IMG/VR virus record: IMGVR_UViG_3300042891_000690
Coordinates: 1 to 22,272 of that record
DNA from: a virus
Length of the DNA: 22,272 nucleotides
Reading direction: 5' to 3' (one strand)
The position numbers and the translations under genes are program-made. Shown in pieces: positions 4,825 through 22,272 of the stretch. Within the stretch, counting starts at the first letter, position 1. Each line of letters opens with the position of its first letter. The notes beneath the pieces are model-generated. The model had not been told where the DNA came from. It made no database searches and saw only the letters and a list, made by a program, of their open reading frames with translations.

Positions 4825-4847
4825 TGTAAAACTAACGATTGGAAAAA

Positions 4848-5807
4848 ATGGCTCATATTGTATTTTTAGGTAACTTTGAAGTCTCATATAGTAGTGAGAA
4901 TCATCATGCTAAGTCTTTAGAGTCTCTTGGCCATACCGTTTGCAAATTGCAAGAAAGAACAATTAAGGATAGTTTTGTTCTTGAACAAGCAATGAATAGT
5001 GATCTTTTTATATGGGTGCATACACACGGCTGGGTGACTCCTGGAAGGCTTGGAATGGGTCACGTGCTAGAAGAGTTAAAGAAGGCTAATATCCCCACAA
5101 TGACATACCATTTAGACCTATGGTTTGGTTTAGAAAGACAGAAAGACCTAGAAGAAGATGATTTTTATAAAACAATTGGGCACTTCTTTGCAACAGATAA
5201 ATTAATGACTGATTGGTTTAATGAGAACACTAATGTTAAAGGACACTTCTTACCTGCTGGGGTATATGATAAAGAGTGTTACATCCATGAGGATTATAAT
5301 AAAGATGAGTTTGAGTATGATGTAATATTTGTTGGTAGTAAAAGGTATCATCATGAACATAAATACCGTGCAGAATTAATAGACTTTTTAAGACGAATCT
5401 ATGGTAAAAGATTTTTACACGTTGGTGGAGATGGAGACACTGGAACTGTACGTGGAAATGATTTAAATAGAATTTATGCAAAAAGTAGAGTAGCAGTTGG
5501 TGATAGTCTTAACATTGATTTTAATTATCCATACTATACAAGTGATAGATTATTTGAAAGTACTGGTCGTGGTGGATTCACTATCTACCCTCGTATTAAA
5601 GGTCTTGAAGAATATTTTATTGATGGAGAAGAAATTGTTTTTTATGAGCATGGCAATCTTGAAGATCTAAAATCTAAGATAGATCAATATCTTAGTGATG
5701 ATTTAAACAGAGAACTAATTAGATTGAATGGTCATAAAAGAACAAAGAATGAGCATACCTATGTTCATCGTTGGCACAGCATTATAAATGAACTTGGTTT
5801 GTCTTAA
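4848..5807 (+). CDS. CgeB-like glycosyltransferase (GT-B fold)
   Basis: 319 residues from ATG 4848 (MAHIVFLGNFEVSYSSENHH). A TTG at 4839 in the same frame is less likely because it lies too close to the predicted transcript start. The protein looks like the CgeB / glycosyl transferase 1_2 group: an N-terminal Rossmann-like half, then YDVIFVGSKRYHHEH, then a C-terminal nucleotide-sugar half with NFNYPYYTSDRLFESTGRG and GLEEYF. These enzymes transfer sugars from NDP-sugars in the cytoplasm; acceptor unknown. The gene is transcribed alone from its own promoter and converges on a methyltransferase gene with a 4-base gap. Probably part of the glycan cassette. Confidence 0.8.
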   Translation: MAHIVFLGNFEVSYSSENHHAKSLESLGHTVCKLQERTIKDSFVLEQAMNSDLFIWVHTHGWVTPGRLGMGHVLEELKKANIPTMTYHLDLWFGLERQKDLEEDDFYKTIGHFFATDKLMTDWFNENTNVKGHFLPAGVYDKECYIHEDYNKDEFEYDVIFVGSKRYHHEHKYRAELIDFLRRIYGKRFLHVGGDGDTGTVRGNDLNRIYAKSRVAVGDSLNIDFNYPYYTSDRLFESTGRGGFTIYPRIKGLEEYFIDGEEIVFYEHGNLEDLKSKIDQYLSDDLNRELIRLNGHKRTKNEHTYVHRWHSIINELGLS

Positions 5808-7065: not shown

Positions 7066-8067
7066 ATGAATATATTGATCACAGGAGTTGCTGGTTTACT
7101 AGGAAGCAGCATTGCAAGAAGCCTTTCAAATCATAATGTTGTTGGAGTAGATAATCTAGTTGGTGGTTATATTGATAACATACCCTCAGAAATTAAATGG
7201 GTCAATAAAAATTGTAATGAATTAACAAAAGAAGACTTCAAAGATATTGAAGTTGTAGTTCATGCAGCGTGTACTGCACATGAAGGTCTTTCTGTTTTTT
7301 CTCCTAAGTTTATTACAGATAACACATATGGAAATTCTATGAATGTTTTGAGTTGTGCAATTCAGGCGGGTGTAAAAAAGTTTATATTTACATCGAGTAT
7401 GGCTAGATATGGAACTCAAGACACTTTGCCTTTTACAGAAAACATGATACCAAAACCACAAGATCCATATGGTATTGCAAAACATGCTTTTGAGTTAACA
7501 TTAAAAAATCTTTCAAAAACTCATGGCATGGAATTTGTTATTCTTGTACCACACAACGTTGTTGGTCATGGACAAAACTACACAGATCCTTTTAGAAATG
7601 TTGCTGGAATTATGATTAACAGAATGCTTCAGGGAAAGCAACCAATTATTTATGGTGATGGTAATCAAAAAAGATGTTTTTCTGATATGAGAGATATTAT
7701 TGATCCATTTCACAAAGTTATTTTTTCTGATGTGGCTAATGGAGAAGTAATTAATATTGGTCCAGACAATAACTTTATAACAATTAATGAATTAGCAGAA
7801 GAGATAGCCTCCATTATTGGTTTTGATTTAGATCCAATTTATTTAGATGCAAGACCTTCTGAAGTAAGATTAGCCCACTGCTCTGCTGATAAAGCAAGAA
7901 AGTTGCTTGACTATTCAACACATTATGAATTAAAAGAAATTTTGTCAAACATGGTTGATTGGGTTAAAATAAGAGGAACTGGACCGTTTAATTTTAATTT
8001 ACCAGTTGAAATTCAAAATAGTTTAACTCCAAAAACTTGGGTAAACCAGGATATATTTAATAAATGA
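7066..8067 (+). CDS. NAD-dependent sugar epimerase/dehydratase (extended SDR)
   Basis: 333 residues. It has the N-terminal dinucleotide motif GVAGLLG (GxxGxxG, residues 7-13), the acidic VDNL after strand 2, and the catalytic set FTSSMARYG (Ser110/111) with YGIAK (Tyr135, Lys139). The C-terminal substrate domain carries GDGNQKRCF and DMRDI, as in UDP-glucose 4-epimerases and relatives. The likely job is interconversion of an NDP-sugar for the transferases downstream; the exact sugar cannot be read. AGGG lies just upstream of ATG 7066. It is the first gene of a coupled + operon to 12413 and overlaps the next gene by ATGA. Confidence 0.9.
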   Translation: MNILITGVAGLLGSSIARSLSNHNVVGVDNLVGGYIDNIPSEIKWVNKNCNELTKEDFKDIEVVVHAACTAHEGLSVFSPKFITDNTYGNSMNVLSCAIQAGVKKFIFTSSMARYGTQDTLPFTENMIPKPQDPYGIAKHAFELTLKNLSKTHGMEFVILVPHNVVGHGQNYTDPFRNVAGIMINRMLQGKQPIIYGDGNQKRCFSDMRDIIDPFHKVIFSDVANGEVINIGPDNNFITINELAEEIASIIGFDLDPIYLDARPSEVRLAHCSADKARKLLDYSTHYELKEILSNMVDWVKIRGTGPFNFNLPVEIQNSLTPKTWVNQDIFNK

Positions 8068-8837
8068 ACAATAAACTAAAGTTTTCATCAACGCAAGAAA
8101 GATTATTGGTAGATGAGTTAGTAAATTTATTTTTTTTAATTCAGGAAGAAGTAAAGCCAAAGATTAGCATTGAATTAGGAGCCAACTCTGCAGAGTTTTC
8201 TCAAAAAATAAAACAAGAGTATCCAAATATTAAATCTTGGGCATTTGAGGCTAACCCATACGTACATAAACACTATGCCGACAGTTTGCAAGATGTTGGA
8301 GTAGAATATATAAATGCTGCAATTACAAATAAAATAGGTAAAACTAGGTTTCTTATTCAAGAAGCATATTTAAATAATGGAGAGTGGGACGGTAAAAGAA
8401 TTAATAGGCTTATAGGAAATAATAGTCTTTTAATACGTGATCAAGACGATGTTTTGTATTCCGCCCCAAAAGTTGATTGCAATACTTTAGATGGATTTTT
8501 TATAGATTCGAATATTTTAAATAGTGATGATACAGTTTGTATTTGGATTGATGTTGAGGGAGCAATTGAGCAAGTACTTAGCAATTCATATAAAACATTA
8601 AAACAAACAGATTCGATATTTATTGAAGTAGAAGACTTTAAGTTTTGGCATGATCAATGGCTTGCTGAAGATGTTATAAAATTTTTAATATCTCAAGATT
8701 TTGTTCCAATAGCCAGAGACTATGAGCATGAAAAACAAAATAATTATATATTTATAAAGTCAAAACTTATGGATAATAATAAAATACTGGATCTTGTTAA
8801 AAATTGGCAAAACCTATATGAAAGCATTGAGTACTAA
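8064..8837 (+). CDS. FkbM-type methyltransferase
   Basis: 257 residues. Motif I is SIELGANSAEFSQKI (about residues 35-49), then WAFEANPYV after strand 2, then NTLDGFF and WIDVEGAIEQVL, the FkbM signature around the DVEG motif. FkbM proteins usually O-methylate sugars or polyketides. Here the surroundings point to a sugar or glycan methyl group; that is inference. The ATG overlaps the epimerase stop (ATGA). The C-terminal extension after about residue 230 is polar and looks like an added helix. Together with 5812-6348 the cassette has two different methyltransferases. Confidence 0.85.
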   Translation: MNNKLKFSSTQERLLVDELVNLFFLIQEEVKPKISIELGANSAEFSQKIKQEYPNIKSWAFEANPYVHKHYADSLQDVGVEYINAAITNKIGKTRFLIQEAYLNNGEWDGKRINRLIGNNSLLIRDQDDVLYSAPKVDCNTLDGFFIDSNILNSDDTVCIWIDVEGAIEQVLSNSYKTLKQTDSIFIEVEDFKFWHDQWLAEDVIKFLISQDFVPIARDYEHEKQNNYIFIKSKLMDNNKILDLVKNWQNLYESIEY

Positions 8838-8838
8838 A

Positions 8839-9669
8839 ATGAAATACGTTGTTGGTCTTCCATACAGAGTTAAGTCTTTTAGGGACAGTCTTATGGCAAC
8901 GTGTAAACTAGAAAATGTTTTTGAAATTGATAATACTGAAAACAATATTGGGTTTTCCGCAAGCCATAATCTTGGAATACAAAAAATGTATGATGACGGC
9001 GCTGATTGGTATATAGTTATGAGTGCTGCTGTTCGATTTGGTGAGCCTGGTGGGTTAGATTTTATTGAAATATTAAAAAATACAGAGTGTGTTATAGTTG
9101 AGGCACTTGGTGTTTATGGATGGCATTTTATAGCATTTCATAAAACCTTAATTGATAAGGTTGGACTATGGGATACAAACTTTACTCCGTATGGTTACGA
9201 AGACTTTGACTACAGCATGAGAATTCAAAGAGCATTTTTATTAGAATATGACGATCATTGGAAAAAAATTGTAGAAAATAAAACAATGTGGGACAAAGTT
9301 AAGATCGACATCAAAGACACAATAATGGCACACAGTTTAAAACTTGGCGGCGTAGATCCAAAAATGGGCAAAACAAGAGAATATTATAATAAAAAATGGG
9401 GAAGATATCCTTCAACTAGTGAAGATCCATATAACTCTTATTTTTACCCTTTTAATAATTCAGAAAATGGTTTAGGATATTTTACAAACGATTACTATAA
9501 TCACTGGATAATAAAAGAATCTAAAAAAGAAAAACAAAATTTTATTGAAGCAGTAGTTACATGTTTATGTGGAAATTCTTTTAAATCAATGTCTGTTAGC
9601 GGGGCGCTGGAAGTTAATACTTGTGCTGCATGCGATCCTGCTGAATTTATGCAAGATGGAACTAAATAA
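8839..9669 (+). CDS. GT2-like glycosyltransferase fused to a bL31-like zinc ribbon
   Basis: 276 residues from ATG 8839, one base after the previous stop; an open frame from TTG 8794 lies inside the previous gene and is rejected. Residues 1-130 look like a family 2 glycosyltransferase: NIGFSASHNLGI and YGYEDFDYSMRI with the usual Glu-Asp pair. The metal site expected near residues 61-66 reads MSAAVR, without the acidic DxD. Residues 238-276 differ: TCLCGNSFKSMS and TCAACDPAEF give C-x-C-x17-C-x2-C (Cys 242, 244, 262, 265), close to zinc-binding ribosomal protein bL31. The active state of the transferase is uncertain. Confidence 0.75.
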   Translation: MKYVVGLPYRVKSFRDSLMATCKLENVFEIDNTENNIGFSASHNLGIQKMYDDGADWYIVMSAAVRFGEPGGLDFIEILKNTECVIVEALGVYGWHFIAFHKTLIDKVGLWDTNFTPYGYEDFDYSMRIQRAFLLEYDDHWKKIVENKTMWDKVKIDIKDTIMAHSLKLGGVDPKMGKTREYYNKKWGRYPSTSEDPYNSYFYPFNNSENGLGYFTNDYYNHWIIKESKKEKQNFIEAVVTCLCGNSFKSMSVSGALEVNTCAACDPAEFMQDGTK

Positions 9670-10529
9670 TGAACAATATTAAAACCTATTTATATTCTTT
9701 TAATGAAGAAGACTGTGCTGCCGATAAGTGGGATTATGGTCTTTTAAAAGAAATGTTTGACAAATATAGTATAGAGCAAATCAAAGTTAATTCTTTGCCA
9801 ATAGAAGAAAGAGCATTTGTTGTAATTCCTGGACCACAAAATATAGGACATGAAGAAGATATATCAAAAGAGTTAAAAAATATATCTAGATTAGTTTTAT
9901 TTATAACAGGGGATGAAGAAGGAGTTTTTGGTATAGACAAAATAAATCATCCTAATGCTGAGGTTTGGATTCAATACCCTCATAAAAAACATGATAAGTA
10001 CAATAAACTTCCAATTGGTGTGCCACAGCATCTAAAAAATAATTTACCTAATTATAAAACTAAAACATATGATGTATTTTTTGGTGGACAAATCACACAT
10101 CAAAGGAGACAACAGTTAGCAGAAGTAATGCCCTCGATTGAGAATGCCCTATACAAGCCTACAGACGGCTTTGCTAAGGGAGATAATCCAGTTGACTACT
10201 ATGACAACCTAATGAATTCAAAAATTGCTCCTTGCCCTGCTGGTGCCGTATCAATTGAATCATTTAGGTTATTTGAAGCAATAGAAATGATGACTTTACC
10301 AATAGCAGACCTTGTAGATTCAAGTGGTTTAAAATATAATTTTTATAAAAATGTTTTTAATGAACTGGTTCCATTTTATCAAACAAGACATTGGAGTGAA
10401 TTGCCCATAATTGTATTAAATTTATTAGAAGAATATCCAAAAAATATGCATAATGTGGTATGCTGGTGGATTAAATACAAAAGAGATCTTGGAATAAAAT
10501 TAATGGAGCAAGTAAATGCAAAAATCTGA
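9669..10529 (+). CDS. exostosin-like glycosyltransferase
   Basis: 286 residues. The second half has VFFGGQITHQRRQQL followed by SKIAPCPAGAVSIESFRLFE and a PIAD loop. This is the pattern of exostosin/GT47-like transferases, with an acidic residue after the SFR segment. The first half has an Asp/Glu-rich Rossmann-type fold with LFITGDEEG. No signal peptide or membrane segment is seen, so it should act in the cytoplasm. The ATG overlaps the previous stop by one base. The next gene begins 14 bases before its end, so translation is coupled. Sugar donor unknown. Confidence 0.7.
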   Translation: MNNIKTYLYSFNEEDCAADKWDYGLLKEMFDKYSIEQIKVNSLPIEERAFVVIPGPQNIGHEEDISKELKNISRLVLFITGDEEGVFGIDKINHPNAEVWIQYPHKKHDKYNKLPIGVPQHLKNNLPNYKTKTYDVFFGGQITHQRRQQLAEVMPSIENALYKPTDGFAKGDNPVDYYDNLMNSKIAPCPAGAVSIESFRLFEAIEMMTLPIADLVDSSGLKYNFYKNVFNELVPFYQTRHWSELPIIVLNLLEEYPKNMHNVVCWWIKYKRDLGIKLMEQVNAKI

Positions 10530-11376
10530 CGTAACAATTATAATTCCAACATCTTATATACCTAGTCATCCTAGTATTAAAGTAATAGAAACAACAATTA
10601 AAAATACCAGATTTCATTTTCCAAATAATGAAATTATTTTACAAATAGATGGACTTAGAGCAGAACAGGCACAATATAAAAAAGATTATGATGAACATAA
10701 AAATAGGGTGCTTTGGAAATGTTTGCATGAATGGCAAAATGTATTGCCAATAATTTTTGACCAACATAGTCATCAAAGTACCATGATGAAAAAAACCATT
10801 AACTTAGTTCAAACACCATTAATTCTTTACATTGAAGGAGATCTTCCTTTAAGAACCGACAGAGATATTGACTGGAATAAGTGTTTAGACATGTTTGAAC
10901 ACAATAAAGCAAATACAATAAGGTTTTATTTAAGAGAAGAGATGCCACAAGAGCATGAGCACATGATGTGTGGTCAAGAAGATAGTTTTATAAAAACTGT
11001 TCAATGGAGTCAAAACCCACATTTAAGTTTTACTAGTTACTATAAAGACATTATTTTACCAAATGTTGGTGAAACAAATTATATTGAAGATGAATTTTAT
11101 GGAAAGGCCCAAACTGATTGCGAGTATTTGCCTGAAGAAGAACCTGTGATTGAGGAACCATACGTTTTTAAAATTAGAAATTGGGAAGCACACAAAATGT
11201 TTATTTATTATCCAGACAATGGACAAAACTTAAGTAGGGTTTTACATTTAGATGGAAGACAAAGCACTAAAAAATTTACACAAGATGATGACTTTTGGGA
11301 ATATACAAGCATTGAGGATGCAAAAAAAATATTAAGACAATCAGAAATGTTTAAAGATGACAAGGATATTTTATGA
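10516..11376 (+). CDS. glycosyltransferase-like protein (GT-A/GT2)
   Basis: 286 residues. The N-terminus DVTIIIPTSYIPSHPS and the strand EIILQIDG fit a GT-A nucleotide-sugar fold. PLILYIEGDLPLRTD (residues 101-115) supplies the acidic EGD at the usual DxD place. The C-terminal part (WEAHKMFIYYPDNGQNLSR, HLDGRQ) is not one I can assign. GGAG at about 10503 precedes the ATG at 10516, which lies inside the end of the previous gene. The stop overlaps the next ATG (ATGA). It belongs to the four-transferase run 8839-12413. Confidence 0.65.
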   Translation: MQKSDVTIIIPTSYIPSHPSIKVIETTIKNTRFHFPNNEIILQIDGLRAEQAQYKKDYDEHKNRVLWKCLHEWQNVLPIIFDQHSHQSTMMKKTINLVQTPLILYIEGDLPLRTDRDIDWNKCLDMFEHNKANTIRFYLREEMPQEHEHMMCGQEDSFIKTVQWSQNPHLSFTSYYKDIILPNVGETNYIEDEFYGKAQTDCEYLPEEEPVIEEPYVFKIRNWEAHKMFIYYPDNGQNLSRVLHLDGRQSTKKFTQDDDFWEYTSIEDAKKILRQSEMFKDDKDIL

Positions 11377-12413
11377 GATTAGGAATTATTGCTAGATCTG
11401 ATAACACTGGATTAGGCAATCAAACACGGGAATTAGTTAAAATGCTTAATCCCGACAAAATTTTATTGATTGATTCAAAACATTTTAATGGTAATAAGCA
11501 ACATCCAGAATGGTATAAAGATTACAATGTAATAACTACATCAGTTGGGTTTCCAACAAAACCAGAAGTAATAGAATTTTTAAGGGATATAGATATAGTT
11601 TTAAGTTGTGAAACTTTTTATAGGCAAGACTTTTTACATTATGCCAAACGAAGAGGCATTAAAACAATCTTACAATATAATTTTGAATTCTTATTAAATA
11701 TGTCTGTTCCAGAAGCAGAACTTCCAGATGTTTTACTTGCTCCAAGTTTATGGAACATAGATCAAATTGAAAAAATGGTTGATGGCAGATGTAAAATAAT
11801 TTCCCTTCCACCGCCAACCGATTCAACTTTGTTTGAAAATGTTAGACAAAACAATATGTCAAAAAATCATAATAGATTATTACATGTTGGTGGAAAGTTT
11901 GCAGCAAAAGATAGAAATGGAACTGAAACTGTTTTACAAATGCTTAAATATTCAAAAGCAAATTACGAGTTAGTAATTACAACACAAAAATTTCCAGAAT
12001 TAAATCTAAAAGATTCAAGAGTTACAGTTAACAATAATAATCCAGAGAATAGAGAAGAACTTTATAATGGATTTGATGCTATGGTTTTGCCAAGAAGATA
12101 TGCTGGTTTGTGTCTTCCAATGAATGAGGCATTGATTAGTGGACTGCCAGTATTTATGACAAATATATCTCCAAACAATTTAATTCTTCCTAAAGAATGG
12201 TTGGTAAAATCTGAACATGTTAATAGTTTTCAGGCCAAATCATTAATAGATGTTTATGAAGGAAGTCCTGAACATTTAGCAACAATTGTTGATGATTATA
12301 TGAATAACAAAGATAAGCGTGAAATGAAAGATTCTGCGTTACAAATAGGATTAAATAATTTTGCTAAAAATAATCTAAAGGATAAATATTTAGATCTTAT
12401 CGCTCATATGTAG
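11373..12413 (+). CDS. GT4-like glycosyltransferase (GT-B fold)
   Basis: 346 residues. The N-terminus MRLGIIARSDNTGLGNQTRE carries the glycine-rich loop of GT-B enzymes. The second domain starts near LLHVGGKFAAKDRNG. It contains DAMVLPRRYAGLCLPMNEAL followed by SGLPVFMT, the E-containing motif that binds the donor nucleotide-sugar in family 4. It is the last gene of the + operon that starts at 7066 and overlaps the previous gene by ATGA. Its end overlaps the convergent gene 12397-13086 by 17 bases, and no terminator hairpin is seen there. Confidence 0.8.
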   Translation: MRLGIIARSDNTGLGNQTRELVKMLNPDKILLIDSKHFNGNKQHPEWYKDYNVITTSVGFPTKPEVIEFLRDIDIVLSCETFYRQDFLHYAKRRGIKTILQYNFEFLLNMSVPEAELPDVLLAPSLWNIDQIEKMVDGRCKIISLPPPTDSTLFENVRQNNMSKNHNRLLHVGGKFAAKDRNGTETVLQMLKYSKANYELVITTQKFPELNLKDSRVTVNNNNPENREELYNGFDAMVLPRRYAGLCLPMNEALISGLPVFMTNISPNNLILPKEWLVKSEHVNSFQAKSLIDVYEGSPEHLATIVDDYMNNKDKREMKDSALQIGLNNFAKNNLKDKYLDLIAHM

Positions 12414-13475: not shown

Positions 13476-13865
13476 TTATTTTTGCTCAACTATAGGCTTG
13501 AGTTTTTCTAAAATAAACCTTAATTTTGCATCTGAGTATAAATCTGCTAACTTTGGCTGTTCAATTTGTTGTTCACAATATAAGATAATATCATTAACAG
13601 TAGCCATTGTTTCCTCAATATAATTAAAAGCCACGTCTCTAGAGTCTGATAGAAATTTAATAAAGTTCTCTTGAGTTTCATCCGTTTCATTTTTAATCAA
13701 ATCTAACTGATCTTTTAAGGTTTCAGAAAAAGCCTTTAGTATTCTTTGATCAAGAACAAGTTGTTTTAACATTGTTTTTAATGTATATACCTTATAGGAC
13801 AAAGATATAATAACGCACATGCTTAAAAATAATCCAGTAAACGTAATTAAATTAAAGAACTGCAT
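13476..13865 (-). CDS. membrane-anchored coiled-coil protein
   Basis: 129 residues. One N-terminal membrane helix (FFNLITFTGLFLSMCVIISLS, about residues 3-23) is followed by a long polar helical part rich in Leu, Glu and Lys, with a heptad-like pattern to about residue 100. This is the layout of a single-pass protein with a soluble coiled coil. In a lysis region a spanin-like or anti-host membrane role is possible, but actinophage spanins differ, so I keep it as unknown. The ATG at 13865 lies 14 bases inside the end of the glycosylase gene upstream. The promoter of the holin-like gene follows. Confidence 0.6.
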   Translation of the reverse strand: MQFFNLITFTGLFLSMCVIISLSYKVYTLKTMLKQLVLDQRILKAFSETLKDQLDLIKNETDETQENFIKFLSDSRDVAFNYIEETMATVNDIILYCEQQIEQPKLADLYSDAKLRFILEKLKPIVEQK

Positions 13866-14367
13866 TTAACAACTCATTTCTTTCTTCATGTGTTGGCCAA
13901 TAATATTGGCAAGGAACTTTGCGTTCTGGACAGCACGGAACATTGTATGGGCTTGATTCTGCATACTGATATTTAATATAATAGATAGGATCTTTTTTAA
14001 ATAGATTAGCCTTGTGGGTTGTTGTAATACGCATTACTTTATTATCATTAGACCAGAACATTGGCGGAGTCTTTCCCCATCTACCCGAACATTTTGCTTT
14101 AAGATCATTAAGGTTATTCTCATTGTTTATTGTCTTAATACCGCGAATCTTAGCCTCTTCTATCATGTGCTGTATATAAGACCACAGGCCAGTCTCATAG
14201 CCTTTCCACATAAGCACTGCAGGGTGATTACGCCATGCTCCTGAGATAGACTCTCCAGACAACACCTTGAGTATTTGATACCCTTCAAGGATTTGTTTAT
14301 TAAGTCTTTTATTGTCTAAAGATTTTGCGGTATATGAAATGTCGCTAGACGGCAGAAATGTTTGCAT
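13852..14367 (-). CDS. pyrimidine-dimer DNA glycosylase family protein
   Basis: 171 residues matching the Pyr_excise-type family related to T4 endonuclease V. It starts MQTFLPSSDISYTAKSLDNK, followed by RLNKQILEGYQIL and WRNHPAVLMWKGYE, all typical of bacterial members. The family cuts DNA at UV-made pyrimidine dimers through a glycosylase and lyase step. This would help a phage of sunlit water, which fits but does not prove the habitat. AGGAG lies 5 bases before ATG 14367. The gene follows a hairpin terminator, so it probably has its own promoter, which I do not see clearly. Confidence 0.85.
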   Translation of the reverse strand: MQTFLPSSDISYTAKSLDNKRLNKQILEGYQILKVLSGESISGAWRNHPAVLMWKGYETGLWSYIQHMIEEAKIRGIKTINNENNLNDLKAKCSGRWGKTPPMFWSNDNKVMRITTTHKANLFKKDPIYYIKYQYAESSPYNVPCCPERKVPCQYYWPTHEERNELLNAVL

Positions 14368-14433: not shown

Positions 14434-15339
14434 CTACAAAGCAGACATGTATCCAGTTGAAAGATATCTACCAGATAGCCATTGATTGTTTGTAGGTATT
14501 GTTTTAGCAAGTAGAAAGTTGTAGGTTTCATCAAAAGAACCCTTAAGATTTAAAACCCAATAAGCAGATAATGTCGCAGTCGCGTTTGAAGTTCCTGCGG
14601 TGAATGTACGAGATCCATCTCTATTAGTTACATACCATCTACCATTTAAATAGAAGTCTGTTTGGTTCCAACCATTTGAATACCTTGCTATAGTTGGAAC
14701 TGCTTTAATATCATATGCAGAGCGCCCATCAATTGATGTATTATCTGTTGCTCCAACTGAAACAACATCATTAATACAAGCAGGTGAATTTACTGCTTTT
14801 CTATTTTGTAGATTGCCTGTTGCAGCAATTACCGGAATATTTAATTGTTTTAACGCTAAGACTTGCTCTTTCATACCATCTGGGACTGCACAATTAGCCT
14901 GAATTGAACCCTGAGAAATATTTACAGCGGCAATATTATATTTCTGAGCATTGGCAATCACCCAATCAAGTGCTGTCTTTACTGGTCTTAGAGAATAAAT
15001 ATCTACTTGTCCAGAATCTGTAACGCCAACTATTCTAATTGGAATTATTTTGACATCTGGATTTACTGCTAAGATAACGGAAATCATTTGAGATCCGTGA
15101 TTTAGTGTTTTGTTTGTACTTTTTGGAATTGCTGCTGCTCCAAGACCTTCCATATAATTTTTTCCATTGGCACAGAGATATCTTTCAATAATACAAACCT
15201 CAGTTGCAATTGATTGTTGAAATAGGTTTGTACCTGTATCAATTACAACAATTGATGAAGGCGTAGTTGCTTGAGATGGTGCTGGAACAAATGTTCCAAA
15301 TAAAATTAATGCTAATAGTGCAGATACTTTATACTTCAT
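14434..15339 (-). CDS. secreted subtilisin-like serine protease (S8)
   Basis: 301 residues. A clear signal peptide (basic MKYK, hydrophobic ALLALILFGTF, cleavage near SQA-TT) is followed by a compact subtilase domain. The triad is visible: Asp34 in VVIDTG, His81 in NHGSQM, Ser251 in AGTSNATA. The oxyanion Asn176 is in AATGN, and VNISQGS matches the family strand. No prodomain or C-terminal domain is obvious. It would be exported by the host and could cut envelope or neighbouring proteins. AAGGAAA precedes ATG 15339. Secreted proteases are unusual in phages and suggest capture from an actinobacterial host. Confidence 0.88.
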   Translation of the reverse strand: MKYKVSALLALILFGTFVPAPSQATTPSSIVVIDTGTNLFQQSIATEVCIIERYLCANGKNYMEGLGAAAIPKSTNKTLNHGSQMISVILAVNPDVKIIPIRIVGVTDSGQVDIYSLRPVKTALDWVIANAQKYNIAAVNISQGSIQANCAVPDGMKEQVLALKQLNIPVIAATGNLQNRKAVNSPACINDVVSVGATDNTSIDGRSAYDIKAVPTIARYSNGWNQTDFYLNGRWYVTNRDGSRTFTAGTSNATATLSAYWVLNLKGSFDETYNFLLAKTIPTNNQWLSGRYLSTGYMSAL

Positions 15340-15589: not shown

Positions 15590-15871
15590 TTACCTCATTG
15601 TCAGATTCTGCCATATTTCAGACCATTTAGATTTTGTTTTGTGGCTATTAAACTCTCTAGATATTTTACCTTTGTCCAAATAAATACCGCCCCAAATTCC
15701 ATATTCTTTCTGTGATATACCTACAGCAAAACATGTTGCTGCTACTGGACACTTAAGACACACGCTGTCAACACCATGACGAATATCTGGAGTTTCTTCA
15801 TACTTATCAAAGAATAAGTTTGTATCAAAATCTTTACAAGCAGCACTTTCTTTCCATAAATGTTTATTCAT
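15590..15871 (-). CDS. WhiB-family iron-sulfur transcription factor
   Basis: 93 residues from ATG 15871 (MNKHLWKESAAC). Four conserved cysteines (12, 38, 41, 47; C-x25-C-x2-C-x5-C) ligate a [4Fe-4S] cluster. YGIWGG (residues 57-62) is the family's turn that contacts the sigma factor. A basic C-terminus (HKTKSKW) can bind DNA. WhiB proteins occur essentially only in Actinobacteria and their phages. Phage copies can redirect host transcription by binding the main sigma factor. The longer start at 15904 adds 11 residues without a ribosome site and is less likely. The gene overlaps its upstream neighbour by 8 bases. Confidence 0.92.
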   Translation of the reverse strand: MNKHLWKESAACKDFDTNLFFDKYEETPDIRHGVDSVCLKCPVAATCFAVGISQKEYGIWGGIYLDKGKISREFNSHKTKSKWSEIWQNLTMR

Positions 15872-16079
15872 ATTGTTTATACTTATCTGGCATAGTCCAG
15901 CCATTGCGGTTTGCTACATATCTTTTTTGAATATTCCATTTATTGTTTTTATATACTCCGTTTTTTTCAAAGGCAGCAGAATCTAATGGAGTTAGTTCAA
16001 CAACATCCCAACCATCCCAAGACAACTTGCTATTAGTAGAAACAATAGTTTCCATTTGTTTTAAATTATTTACAATCAT
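15864..16079 (-). CDS. small protein, unknown function (71 aa)
   Basis: 71 residues with several aromatic residues: LSWDGWDVVELTPLDSAAF, KNGVYKNNKWNIQKRY, then NRNGWTMPDKY. This pattern of an N-terminal polar part and a basic Tyr/Trp-rich end is typical of small phage proteins of unknown role. AAGGAG lies a few bases before ATG 16079. The end overlaps the start of whiB by 8 bases, so WhiB translation probably depends on it. Confidence 0.7.
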   Translation of the reverse strand: MIVNNLKQMETIVSTNSKLSWDGWDVVELTPLDSAAFEKNGVYKNNKWNIQKRYVANRNGWTMPDKYKQYE

Positions 16080-18252: not shown

Positions 18253-18395
18253 TTTTGTCCTTTTGTTTTTACTGGCTCTCCAGTAATTCTGTCTTTTCTA
18301 TATCGTTCAGTTCCATCTTTATTTAAAGCAACGATATTTCCATCACGCAGGATCATATGATTAAAACCAATCTTAGTCTTAGCCTTGAATGACAT
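18249..18395 (-). CDS. small protein, unknown function (48 aa)
   Basis: A 48-residue ORF between the endolysin and the HNH nuclease: MSFKAKTKIGFNHMILRDGN, then IVALNKDGTERY and a basic end. Its ATG 18395 overlaps the endolysin stop by one base (TAATG), and its TGA overlaps the nuclease ATG (ATGA). These two overlaps argue strongly for a real gene. It is basic and polar with no membrane helix. I recognise no family. Confidence 0.7.
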   Translation of the reverse strand: MSFKAKTKIGFNHMILRDGNIVALNKDGTERYRKDRITGEPVKTKGQK

Positions 18396-18982
18396 TACTT
18401 TGCTGCCTTCTTTGCTACCTTTTTTGCTGCTGGACGTTCTAATTTTACTTCAAGTGGAGTTGCTTCTTCACCTTTATAAATTGGACGACCCCAGCCAACA
18501 ATAGTATTGACTAATTTTTTCTTATTATCTTTTACATATGCCCGAGTTTTTTCGGCACACATTCCACCATTACGTTGATCTCCTTTAGCAGATCCAGCAG
18601 TATTTCCTTCAATGGTTTGAATAGTTCCATCGCCATTATTTTTAATACATAGACCTACGTGAGAAATACGATTTACTCCATCATCTGGAAAGTCAAAATA
18701 AATCCAGTCTCCAGGTGTTGGATCATCATTGCGAGCATCTGCCCATCGTTTATTTTTCTTAAACCAATCTGATGCTGTTACTGTTGAAGCAGACTTTGGA
18801 TATTTCTTTGGATCTAGCCCTGATGTAAATGCAGACCAAGAAACAAAAGACTGGCACCAAGGAAGGAAATTTGCACCTGTCCATTTACCATATTTTGTTT
18901 CATTGTCTTTTGGACCTTCAATAGTTCCAACTTCTTTTTTAGCAATTTCAACGATTGCTTCTACTGTACCTTTTTCTGCCAT
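18395..18982 (-). CDS. CHAP-domain endolysin with Lys/Ala tail
   Basis: 195 residues. The CHAP domain shows PWCQSFVSWS (Cys43), ISHVGLC (His108) and TIEGNT (Glu125, Asn127), the expected cysteine amidase/peptidase set. It cuts peptidoglycan amide or peptide bonds at lysis. No signal peptide or separate wall-binding domain is seen, but the last 12 residues (PAAKKVAKKAAK) are a basic tail. A related tail ends the holin-like protein at 13147-13425. AAGGAG lies before ATG 18982 and an extended -10 box lies at 19022-19030. Alone among known lysis genes here, it is clear. Confidence 0.88.
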   Translation of the reverse strand: MAEKGTVEAIVEIAKKEVGTIEGPKDNETKYGKWTGANFLPWCQSFVSWSAFTSGLDPKKYPKSASTVTASDWFKKNKRWADARNDDPTPGDWIYFDFPDDGVNRISHVGLCIKNNGDGTIQTIEGNTAGSAKGDQRNGGMCAEKTRAYVKDNKKKLVNTIVGWGRPIYKGEEATPLEVKLERPAAKKVAKKAAK

Positions 18983-19327: not shown

Positions 19328-19852
19328 TTAAATACTAACTGTATCAATTGGGCCAAGACATGATGTAGAAAATTTAATAGCAGATTGAACTGCATTAATA
19401 GATCTTTTGCGAGCATCTTTTTGATTTTCTGTAGCGTGTAAATGTCCCAATGCATATTGCATTCCAGATCCCATTACTAAATAATCTCCAGTGTATTGTG
19501 TTAAAGACATATCTGCAGCACTATGTTCAAAGATCTTTCCTTTAACGCAAATGATCATTCCAAAATCAGAATCTTTTGATACATCTACCCACCACTCATT
19601 ATAAAAATCACGAAGTTCTTTAATAAATTTAGTGTACATAAATTTTTCAATATTATTTCCAGTTGGCACTGATGGTTTAAAATTATGTTTTATTCTATCG
19701 CCATCCATAGTTCCTGCATATCCAAATAGATATGGGCCTTGCTGCCAAACTTTTGACGTGGCACACTGAAGTATGATATCATCGTCAGACACGCCTCTTT
19801 CGCCAGACATATAGATCTTTTCATCTTTACGAACAACGGCAATACAGGTCAC
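19328..19852 (-). CDS. proteasome beta-like Ntn hydrolase
   Basis: 174 residues starting at GTG 19852 with AAAGGGG upstream. After Met removal the chain would begin TCIAVVR. Thr1 can be the N-terminal nucleophile, Lys33 (in ATSKVW) is at the exact proteasome position, and Glu17 takes the place of Asp17. MGSGMQYA puts Ser128-Gly129 at the place of beta Ser129-Gly130. The family forms Ntn-hydrolase folds that cut peptide bonds. Actinobacteria have true proteasomes, so a phage beta-like subunit may act alone or mix with host parts. No propeptide is present. It has its own promoter. Confidence 0.75.
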   Translation of the reverse strand: MTCIAVVRKDEKIYMSGERGVSDDDIILQCATSKVWQQGPYLFGYAGTMDGDRIKHNFKPSVPTGNNIEKFMYTKFIKELRDFYNEWWVDVSKDSDFGMIICVKGKIFEHSAADMSLTQYTGDYLVMGSGMQYALGHLHATENQKDARKRSINAVQSAIKFSTSCLGPIDTVSI

Positions 19853-20220: not shown

Positions 20221-20400
20221 TTATTCCTTTCTATTTCTGATTGGACTTGTAATTATCCAAAGAGCAGTTGTTGCCATGATTCCATAGCCAACAATAGTCT
20301 TTGCACTTCCATCCAGAACAACCCAAGCAATAAACATACCGAGAAGGGTCCATGCTTGGTCCACCATATCTTTTAGGATATTTTTTATTATTCTTACCAT
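20221..20400 (-). CDS. small membrane protein (59 aa), start inside fibre gene
   Basis: A 59-residue ORF: MVRIIKNILKDMVDQAW, then a hydrophobic LLGMFIAWVVLDG and GYGIMATTALWIITSP, ending in basic IRNRKE. The two membrane helices and charged ends fit a holin-type or other small membrane protein. AGGAGG lies 6 bases before ATG 20400, a very strong ribosome site in the end of the fibre gene, which it overlaps by 7 bases. The stop is 2 bases before the next ATG. A longer open frame here (20231-20473) gives a cysteine-rich, implausible protein and is rejected. Confidence 0.75.
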   Translation of the reverse strand: MVRIIKNILKDMVDQAWTLLGMFIAWVVLDGSAKTIVGYGIMATTALWIITSPIRNRKE

Positions 20401-22272
20401 CTTCTTCCTCCTCTTGAACCTGGTGAATTGGCTCCTCCGCCTCCGCCAGAACTTCCTCCGCTAGTAGAGCCACCTGTGGCTCCTCCTGTTGCTACTGCTG
20501 CTGCGTTAATTGCAGCACCTGTTGCTACAACTGTTGCTACAACCATATCTGTTGCTTCTTCTCTTTCTTCTTCAGTCATGTCAGCACCAATACTTCCAAT
20601 TGCTGCAAGTGCTGCTCCTGGATCTGTAAATATTGCTTCTACCAATGCACCTGCATCTTCAACTAATTCAATATTTGCAGCAACTTCTGCAGTAATAACC
20701 AATGCATTTCCATTCTCATCTGTACGAACTTCAATTGGTGTTTCAGGTGGTAGGTCTGCATATGAAACTCCAGATGTCTGAACTTGTTCTGCTGATATTG
20801 ATTCTCCAGGTTTAAGGTTTTCAATTAATGCCTCAACAAGAATTTCTTTTTGTTCTTCAGTTAATTCTTTTCCATCTTTTGCTTCTTCAAGTATTTCTTT
20901 TAATTCTTCTTCAGCAGCCTTTTCTTCTTCTGCCTCAATAGCCTCTGCTTCTGCAATTTCCGCTAACTCTTCTGCAATTTCTGCTTCTTCTTCTGCTATG
21001 GCTGCTTCCGCTTCTGCTTTAGCATTTTCTATTTCTTGTTCCATAGCCTCTTGTTCAGCAGCAATTCTATCTGCTTCTGCTTGAGCATTTGCTTCTTCTT
21101 GTGCATTTGCTTCTTCTTGTGCAATGCGGTCTGCTTCTGCCTGTGCTTCTGCTCTCATCTGTGCTTCTATTGCTTCAAGTTCTGCTGCTATACGATCTGC
21201 CTCTGCATTTGCATCAATCTCTGCCTGTATCCTTGCTGCCTCTTCAGCCATTTCTGCTGCTTCTTCTGCTAATTTTGCAGCAAGTTCTGCTGCTATTCTA
21301 TTTGCTTCTGCATTGGCTGCAGCAAGGGCTGCAAGTCTGTTTGCTTCCGCTTGTGCTGCGGCTGCTTGTTCTGCAATCATTGCTGCTGCTTCAGCCTGTA
21401 TCCTTGCTGCCTCTGCTTGTTGTGCTGCTGCTTGGGCTGCTACTTGTGCTGCAATTGCTGCTTCGGCTTGTGCTTGTGCCAGTGCTTGGGCTACTGCTTG
21501 GGCTGCTGCTGCGGCTTCTGCTGCTGCAGCCTCTGTTGCCAACCTTATAGCCTCTTCTTCTGCAGCAATGGCTGCTAGTCTTGCATTTTCTGCATCAATA
21601 ATCGCTTGGGCTGCTGCCTCTTCTGCAGCAATTTCTTCTGCAGTTTTACCAATTTTTAATGTAACCACATTTGAATTTTCAGAATATAAAGGTAGTGTGT
21701 CATTATCTGATCTAATATGAAATGACCATACTGTTCCACTTGGCATTAGACTTTCAAGTAATGAGTGGCTAATTGTTATTGTTGTATTGAGGGAGTTAGG
21801 GCCACCAACATTTCCAGTTGCAATACCCCAGCCATTTTGTCCCTGAGTATTAAGACCTATAGCATATCTTTCTGGTTGAATATTGCCAGTATTTGGGGCT
21901 TCCCAAGTTAATACCGTTGATGTTTCTCCATCTACTACTGTTAAATTTTGTGGAGCACCTATGGTATTTATTATTGGGGCTGCTTGTGAAGTAAATGCTG
22001 ATGCTGGAATAATATCCATAGATCCAGATTGATCCCAATGAAGGAATACATTTGCTCCCCCGCCATTTTCATAGTACATCAATTCTATAGTTTTTGGAAC
22101 TCCTGCTGTAAAAGAAACTGGAGCACTTGTAGTTCCTCCACCACCTTTATCAACCCAGTCATTTGTTATTAAAGTTCCATCAAGATATAGTTTAGTTCCA
22201 TCATCTGCTGTTGCTAAAAATGATATTTCTTGGGTTGTATTGCTAAGTATTGATCCTGTAAATCTTACAATG
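20394..22272 (-). CDS. PA14-FN3-Ala/Glu coiled-coil fibre-like protein (partial)
   Basis: The frame is open to the right edge, so the N-terminus is missing; the ATG at 22079 is internal. At least 625 residues are in the window. First comes the end of a PA14 domain (ATADDGTKLYLDGTL, then MYYENGGGANVFLHWDQ), which binds sugars. An FN3 domain follows (GAPQNLTVVDGETSTVLTW). Next is a helical Ala/Glu/Gln-rich rod of about 230 residues, then an acidic helical part, and last a Gly/Ser-rich tail ending GGRRW. This fits a long surface or fibre protein that binds host glycans. Host surface proteins have similar layouts, so capture is possible. Confidence 0.75.
   Translation of the reverse strand, partial: IVRFTGSILSNTTQEISFLATADDGTKLYLDGTLITNDWVDKGGGGTTSAPVSFTAGVPKTIELMYYENGGGANVFLHWDQSGSMDIIPASAFTSQAAPIINTIGAPQNLTVVDGETSTVLTWEAPNTGNIQPERYAIGLNTQGQNGWGIATGNVGGPNSLNTTITISHSLLESLMPSGTVWSFHIRSDNDTLPLYSENSNVVTLKIGKTAEEIAAEEAAAQAIIDAENARLAAIAAEEEAIRLATEAAAAEAAAAAQAVAQALAQAQAEAAIAAQVAAQAAAQQAEAARIQAEAAAMIAEQAAAAQAEANRLAALAAANAEANRIAAELAAKLAEEAAEMAEEAARIQAEIDANAEADRIAAELEAIEAQMRAEAQAEADRIAQEEANAQEEANAQAEADRIAAEQEAMEQEIENAKAEAEAAIAEEEAEIAEELAEIAEAEAIEAEEEKAAEEELKEILEEAKDGKELTEEQKEILVEALIENLKPGESISAEQVQTSGVSYADLPPETPIEVRTDENGNALVITAEVAANIELVEDAGALVEAIFTDPGAALAAIGSIGADMTEEEREEATDMVVATVVATGAAINAAAVATGGATGGSTSGGSSGGGGGANSPGSRGGRRW

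Follow-up and report, generated by a model that had tools for sequence, protein, structure and literature searches.

A bL31-type zinc ribbon at the C-terminus of a GT-A-like protein in a phage glycosyltransferase cassette

The locus and its glycosyltransferase cassette

The window, meaning here the whole stretch of 22,272 bases that was analysed, is a virus record carrying a glycosyltransferase cassette (Table 1). One gene of this cassette encodes a 276-residue protein built of two parts: a core predicted to adopt a GT-A fold and, after a linker, a tail resembling the zinc ribbon of the ribosomal protein bL31. The start methionine of this product is kept in its relatives. The gene order is PF13524 glycosyltransferase, variable genes, the gene for this protein, RXYLT1_C-like gene, uncharacterised gene and glycosyltransferase. 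Nearly all of the larger loci conserve it, whether or not they have the ribbon; the RXYLT1_C-like gene in particular is kept downstream in nearly all of them. The product of this last gene has no match at E 1e-5 in the phage record collection.

Table 1. Features of the ribbon-bearing gene and of its cassette in the window
Feature	Coordinates	Strand	Basis or remark
Coding sequence of 276 aa: glycosyltransferase-like core (predicted GT-A fold) followed by a bL31-type zinc ribbon at the C-terminus	8839..9669	+	ATG start
GT-A-like core (predicted), residues 1-217	8839..9489	+	AF2 model, VIA-align, Foldseek, Pfam in relatives
SAA, residues 62-64, at the SND position of Pontimonas phage phiPsal1 GT2	9022..9030	+	42-member alignment; phiPsal1 sequence
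EDFD, residues 121-124, (E/D)DxD motif; D122 and D124 invariant	9199..9210	+	42-member alignment
H165 in MAHS, kept in 41/42	9331..9333	+	42-member alignment
Linker, predicted helix 218-228, to residue 233	9490..9537	+	AF2 model; ribbonless relatives stop at or near here
bL31-type zinc ribbon, residues 234-268	9538..9642	+	Pfam, NCBIfam and PDB matches, contig scans, profile comparison
First knuckle, C242-L-C244	9562..9570	+	Sequence; Cys invariant in relatives
Second knuckle, C262-A-A-C265	9622..9633	+	Sequence; Cys invariant in relatives
PF13524 glycosyltransferase, upstream in ribbon-bearing and ribbonless phages	4839..5807	+	Pfam; locus comparison
FkbM methyltransferase gene (PF05050), among the variable genes of the cassette	8064..8837	+	Pfam; locus comparison
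RXYLT1_C-like gene (PF24785, E 1.8e-6), overlaps the stop codon of 8839..9669	9669..10529	+	Pfam
Uncharacterised cassette gene without a Pfam match, also downstream in nearly all of the larger loci	10516..11376	+	Pfam; locus comparison
Glycosyltransferase (PF13692/PF00534), cassette neighbour	11373..12413	+	Pfam; locus comparison

The window also has an epimerase-like gene, recognised by eye, and near the cassette a carbamoyltransferase gene at 1440-2879 on the minus strand (Carbam_trans_C, E 5.5e-53; Carbam_trans_N, E 8.5e-36). Along with the FkbM gene, they are consistent with a cassette that decorates a glycan. Which cells does the phage infect? An actinobacterial host is suggested by a WhiB-type gene (15590-15904; PF02467, E 1e-12), WhiB being described as a key indicator of actinophages (PMC10202952). 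The same phage encodes, on the minus strand, a subtilase (14434-15339), a CHAP-domain protein (18395-18982) and a pyrimidine dimer DNA glycosylase (13852-14367). The product of 19328-19852 (minus strand) looks by eye like an Ntn-hydrolase or HslV-type protease (MTCIAVV...GYAGTMDG) and has no Pfam match at E 0.01, and a long, repetitive protein rich in Ala and Glu occupies 20394-22272 (minus strand) and runs past the end of the window.

The predicted GT-A core and its active-site positions

A GT-A fold related to GT2 and GT7 is predicted for the core. The AF2 model used was built from 42 diverse sequences, one built from 11 close sequences having been discarded (pLDDT 38.8). It reaches a mean pLDDT of 81.6 and a pTM of 0.78, with ten-residue block means of 85-98 at residues 1-130 and of 63-71 at residues 131-150 and 161-180. 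With a pLDDT of just 57-68, the ribbon (residues 231-270) is modelled too poorly for its fold and placement to be taken as established. VIA-align superposes the core on B4GalT1 (1tvy_A) with a Z-score of 12.3 and an rmsd of 3.1 over 172 residues, the top Foldseek match in the PDB is the fucosyltransferase WrtF, and the capsid glycosyltransferase of PBCV-1 is also among the structural matches from these two programs. There is no bL31 entry in the VIA-align list, an absence that carries no weight because its alignments barely cover the ribbon. PF10111 is matched by 18 and PF02709 by 8 of the 42 aligned family members (E<=0.1). The union of a GT2-like domain with a bL31-type ribbon in one protein, which the earlier note had put forward, is supported by this predicted core and by the tail profiles described below.

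How would such a protein work? The same note had pointed to MSAAVR in place of the acidic DxD of these enzymes. This stretch lies at residues 61-66, and not one of the 42 aligned members has an Asp or Glu at positions 60-68, where the consensus reads SAA[IV]RFG, so that an acidic DxD is lacking throughout the alignment. The suggestion that the protein is a binder rather than an enzyme has fared less well. Strong purifying selection acts on the core, in which D122, D124 and H165 are conserved; R128, W95 and H96, like D122 and D124, are invariant among the 42 members. The M-x-H-S around H165 may correspond to the Met and His of the B4GalT metal site. Catalysis without the DxD may occur, but we consider it doubtful.

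The ribbon, its relatives and bL31

The C-terminus had been described as a four-cysteine C-x-C-x17-C-x2-C tail with TCLCGNSFKS and TCAACDPAEF, bL31-like in spacing and flanks. All of these elements are present in the 276-residue product (cysteines 242, 244, 262 and 265), and the likeness has proved to be closer than in that first comparison with E. coli bL31: the tail has the bL31 pattern of a C-x-C-x17/18-C-x2-C ribbon with CGN, and B. subtilis bL31, in the phmmer alignment against the PDB, has exactly the x17 spacing. Tails and bL31 also have a consensus in common beyond the cysteines (FxExxVxCxCGNxFKxxSV..lxVxxCxxC). The likeness covers part of bL31. After C265 the window protein has neither the HPFYTG loop nor the C-terminal half with which bL31 touches the 30S head, and the MKxxIHP start is missing too. 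Each of H33, F35, T37 and G38, present in every member of the bL31 set (A7), has disappeared from most or all of the tails.

The ribbon is found in 48 virus contigs, which fall into two sister clades differing at the first knuckle: the clade of the window (clade 1, 32 contigs) has C-x-C and clade 2 (16 contigs, core about 59% identical to that of the window clade) has C-x2-C. Around 45 further contigs carry the same gene without the ribbon, mostly within the same glycosyltransferase cassette; these products end at about 207-243 residues and are roughly 33-54% identical. In the family alignment (A6) 18 of the 42 members have the ribbon and 17 match PF01197. The tree joins the ribbon clades as one group among ribbonless relatives (support 97/91), which is most simply explained by one gain. 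Since the root depends on a single outgroup with a very long branch it is not firm, and the ribbon was probably, rather than provably, gained once. Absent from many relatives and fitted by one gain, the ribbon is no normal part of this glycosyltransferase family as a whole. Two loci deserve mention: in L045 (298-435) the core frame ends prematurely with EWIKTDIC and a different frame encodes the ribbon, a frameshift that is either natural or due to assembly, and L121 has two sites similar to the family (38% and 35% identity), possibly a tandem pair.

Where it is present, the ribbon is kept by selection, under a constraint weaker than that on the core. The four cysteines occur in 18/18 full-length relatives of clade 1 and, at homologous places, in 12/12 of clade 2. 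Pairwise dN/dS is 0.086 for the core and 0.289 for the ribbon in clade 1, and 0.103 and 0.333, respectively, in clade 2; in the relatives the ribbon tolerates insertions and the CxxC knuckle.

Is the tail bL31 by sequence? The window tail alone matches Pfam PF01197 (Ribosomal_L31) with 21.2 bits (E 3.4e-4) and NCBIfam NF000612 (L31) with 25.5 bits (E 7.7e-6), short of the curated cut-offs of 27 and 70 bits; for the whole protein, Ribosomal_L31 is the sole Pfam match (E 0.0045). The clade-2 tail gives E 7.2e-8 against NCBIfam L31 and also matches Zn_ribbon_SprT and other ribbons weakly. For every tail tested, of both clades, bL31 is the top match in Pfam and NCBIfam and no other ribbon does better, the L31 E-value lying at least 35 times below that of the next family in the five tails tested. 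bL31 chains rank first in a phmmer search of the PDB (E 0.0013), and L31 is matched by 0/10 shuffles of the tail that preserve the cysteine positions. Profile comparison with cellular bL31 gave 99.1% for clade 1 and 96.1% for clade 2; the 55% identity of the bL31 set used there to the tail is inflated, since its members were picked with a pattern that includes CGNxFK[ST][TM]S, a bias from which the Pfam, NCBIfam and PDB results are free. The tail has no match in PHROGs, and the family alignment, run as a profile against the PDB, gave no significant hit. The sub-cut-off scores count against descent from bL31, as does the fact that a 34-residue ribbon can converge. On balance we infer that this piece derives from bL31 rather than from convergence and that its four cysteines would bind one zinc.

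Look-alikes elsewhere were sought by scanning contigs. With the tail alignment, all 29 confirmed loci in genome contigs are ordinary bL31 genes of 66-71 residues, and seven of nine weak plasmid matches are annotated rpmE, the other two lying where no gene is listed. In viral contigs, the tail of either clade leads to loci of this glycosyltransferase family; bL31 as query leads to stand-alone bL31 genes (two of them, L251 and L255, partial), the only fusion being this same family. Within the loci searched the tail was found on no other protein, and the glycosyltransferase family was not confirmed in any bacterial genome contig. One stand-alone viral bL31 (L245, 134-373) has a CxxC first knuckle (KCTSCGNEF) instead of CxC, so the knuckle of clade 2 occurs in bL31 itself too.

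Possible roles of the ribbon and comparison with known systems

What would a ribosomal ribbon do on a glycosyltransferase? We propose that it has been reused as a docking or stabilising module, a reading to which we give about an even chance. A GT-A protein of the GT2/GT7 kind would act in a conserved phage cassette that probably builds or attaches a glycan on a component of the virion or of the host surface. In one lineage its C-terminus would have acquired the zinc ribbon from the N-terminal part of a bL31 gene, either the host's or a phage copy. Folded round one zinc, this small module would then position the core on a partner, which may be another cassette protein or the acceptor. We prefer this reading because the tail corresponds to the N-domain ribbon stripped of the remaining parts of bL31.

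Alternatively, the ribbon could merely stabilise the fold or an oligomer of the core with no partner bound. Its weaker constraint would fit this, as would the relatives that manage without it in the same cassette, but the ribbon is preceded by a linker helix, and those relatives have a complete core. We consider this option rather improbable. Could the ribbon instead still bind the site of the bL31 N-domain on the central protuberance of the 50S subunit, and thereby tether the glycosyltransferase to ribosomes or, in infected cells, take the place of the host's own bL31? bL31 anchors to 5S rRNA and uL5 through its N-domain, the part captured here, and to the 30S head through its C-terminal part (PMC9966373; PMC7530986). 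Aquatic viruses carry stand-alone bL31, a loosely bound and exchangeable protein (PMC6375957). The net charge of the tail ribbon resembles that of the bL31 ribbon, although charge tells neither for nor against ribosome binding. Set against this are the bL31 elements and invariant residues lost from the tails, together with a ribbon that is less constrained than the core and accommodates insertions and a CxxC knuckle. We regard ribosome targeting as unlikely, and as distinctly unlikely that the captured domain occupies, or competes for, the place of bL31 on the host's ribosomes and so links glycan modification to translation during infection. Chance resemblance of an unrelated zinc ribbon would agree with the sub-threshold scores and with the CxxC and weak other-ribbon matches of clade 2, but the E-value gap to the next family, a likeness reaching past the cysteines and a natural CxxC bL31 make it very unlikely.

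The docking or stabilising module is the reading we carry forward. The fold is known and the ribbon is known; the combination is new. A literature search for L31 fusions or phage glycosyltransferases with a zinc ribbon found no account, most subscription journals being outside the search. This is a well-supported example of a viral GT-A protein in which the zinc ribbon of a ribosomal protein has been reused as an accessory domain. As ribbon-bearing and ribbonless states occur in otherwise alike cassettes, the added function is directly testable, and nature offers a test of whether a moved ribosomal domain retains ribosome affinity on another protein.

How does the protein compare with known systems? 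With zinc-binding bL31 (PF01197, NF000612) it shares the FxExxVxCxCGNxFxxxSxxxxxxVxxCxxC ribbon, spaced as in B. subtilis; bL31, however, stands alone with its MKxxIHP start, HPFYTG loop and 30S-bridging C-terminal half, whereas the phage ribbon lacks these and is fused to a GT-A core. GT2/GT7-like GT-A enzymes (PF10111, PF02709; WrtF, B4GalT1, the PBCV-1 capsid glycosyltransferase) have the same predicted fold and share the DNTxNNIG and (E/D)DxD...R motif regions with the phage core, which differs from them in lacking the acidic DxD and, in one clade, in carrying the bL31-type ribbon. A GT2 of Pontimonas phage phiPsal1 (MG835450.1), a phage of an actinobacterium in which the gene lies among structural genes, is 34.7% identical to the window protein over residues 35-132, but reads SND where the DxD would lie and lacks the ribbon. 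Finally, aquatic viruses likewise carry bL31 sequence (Mizuno et al. 2019, PMC6375957); theirs is a stand-alone ribosomal protein gene, whereas here a GT-A protein has a partial bL31 domain joined to it.
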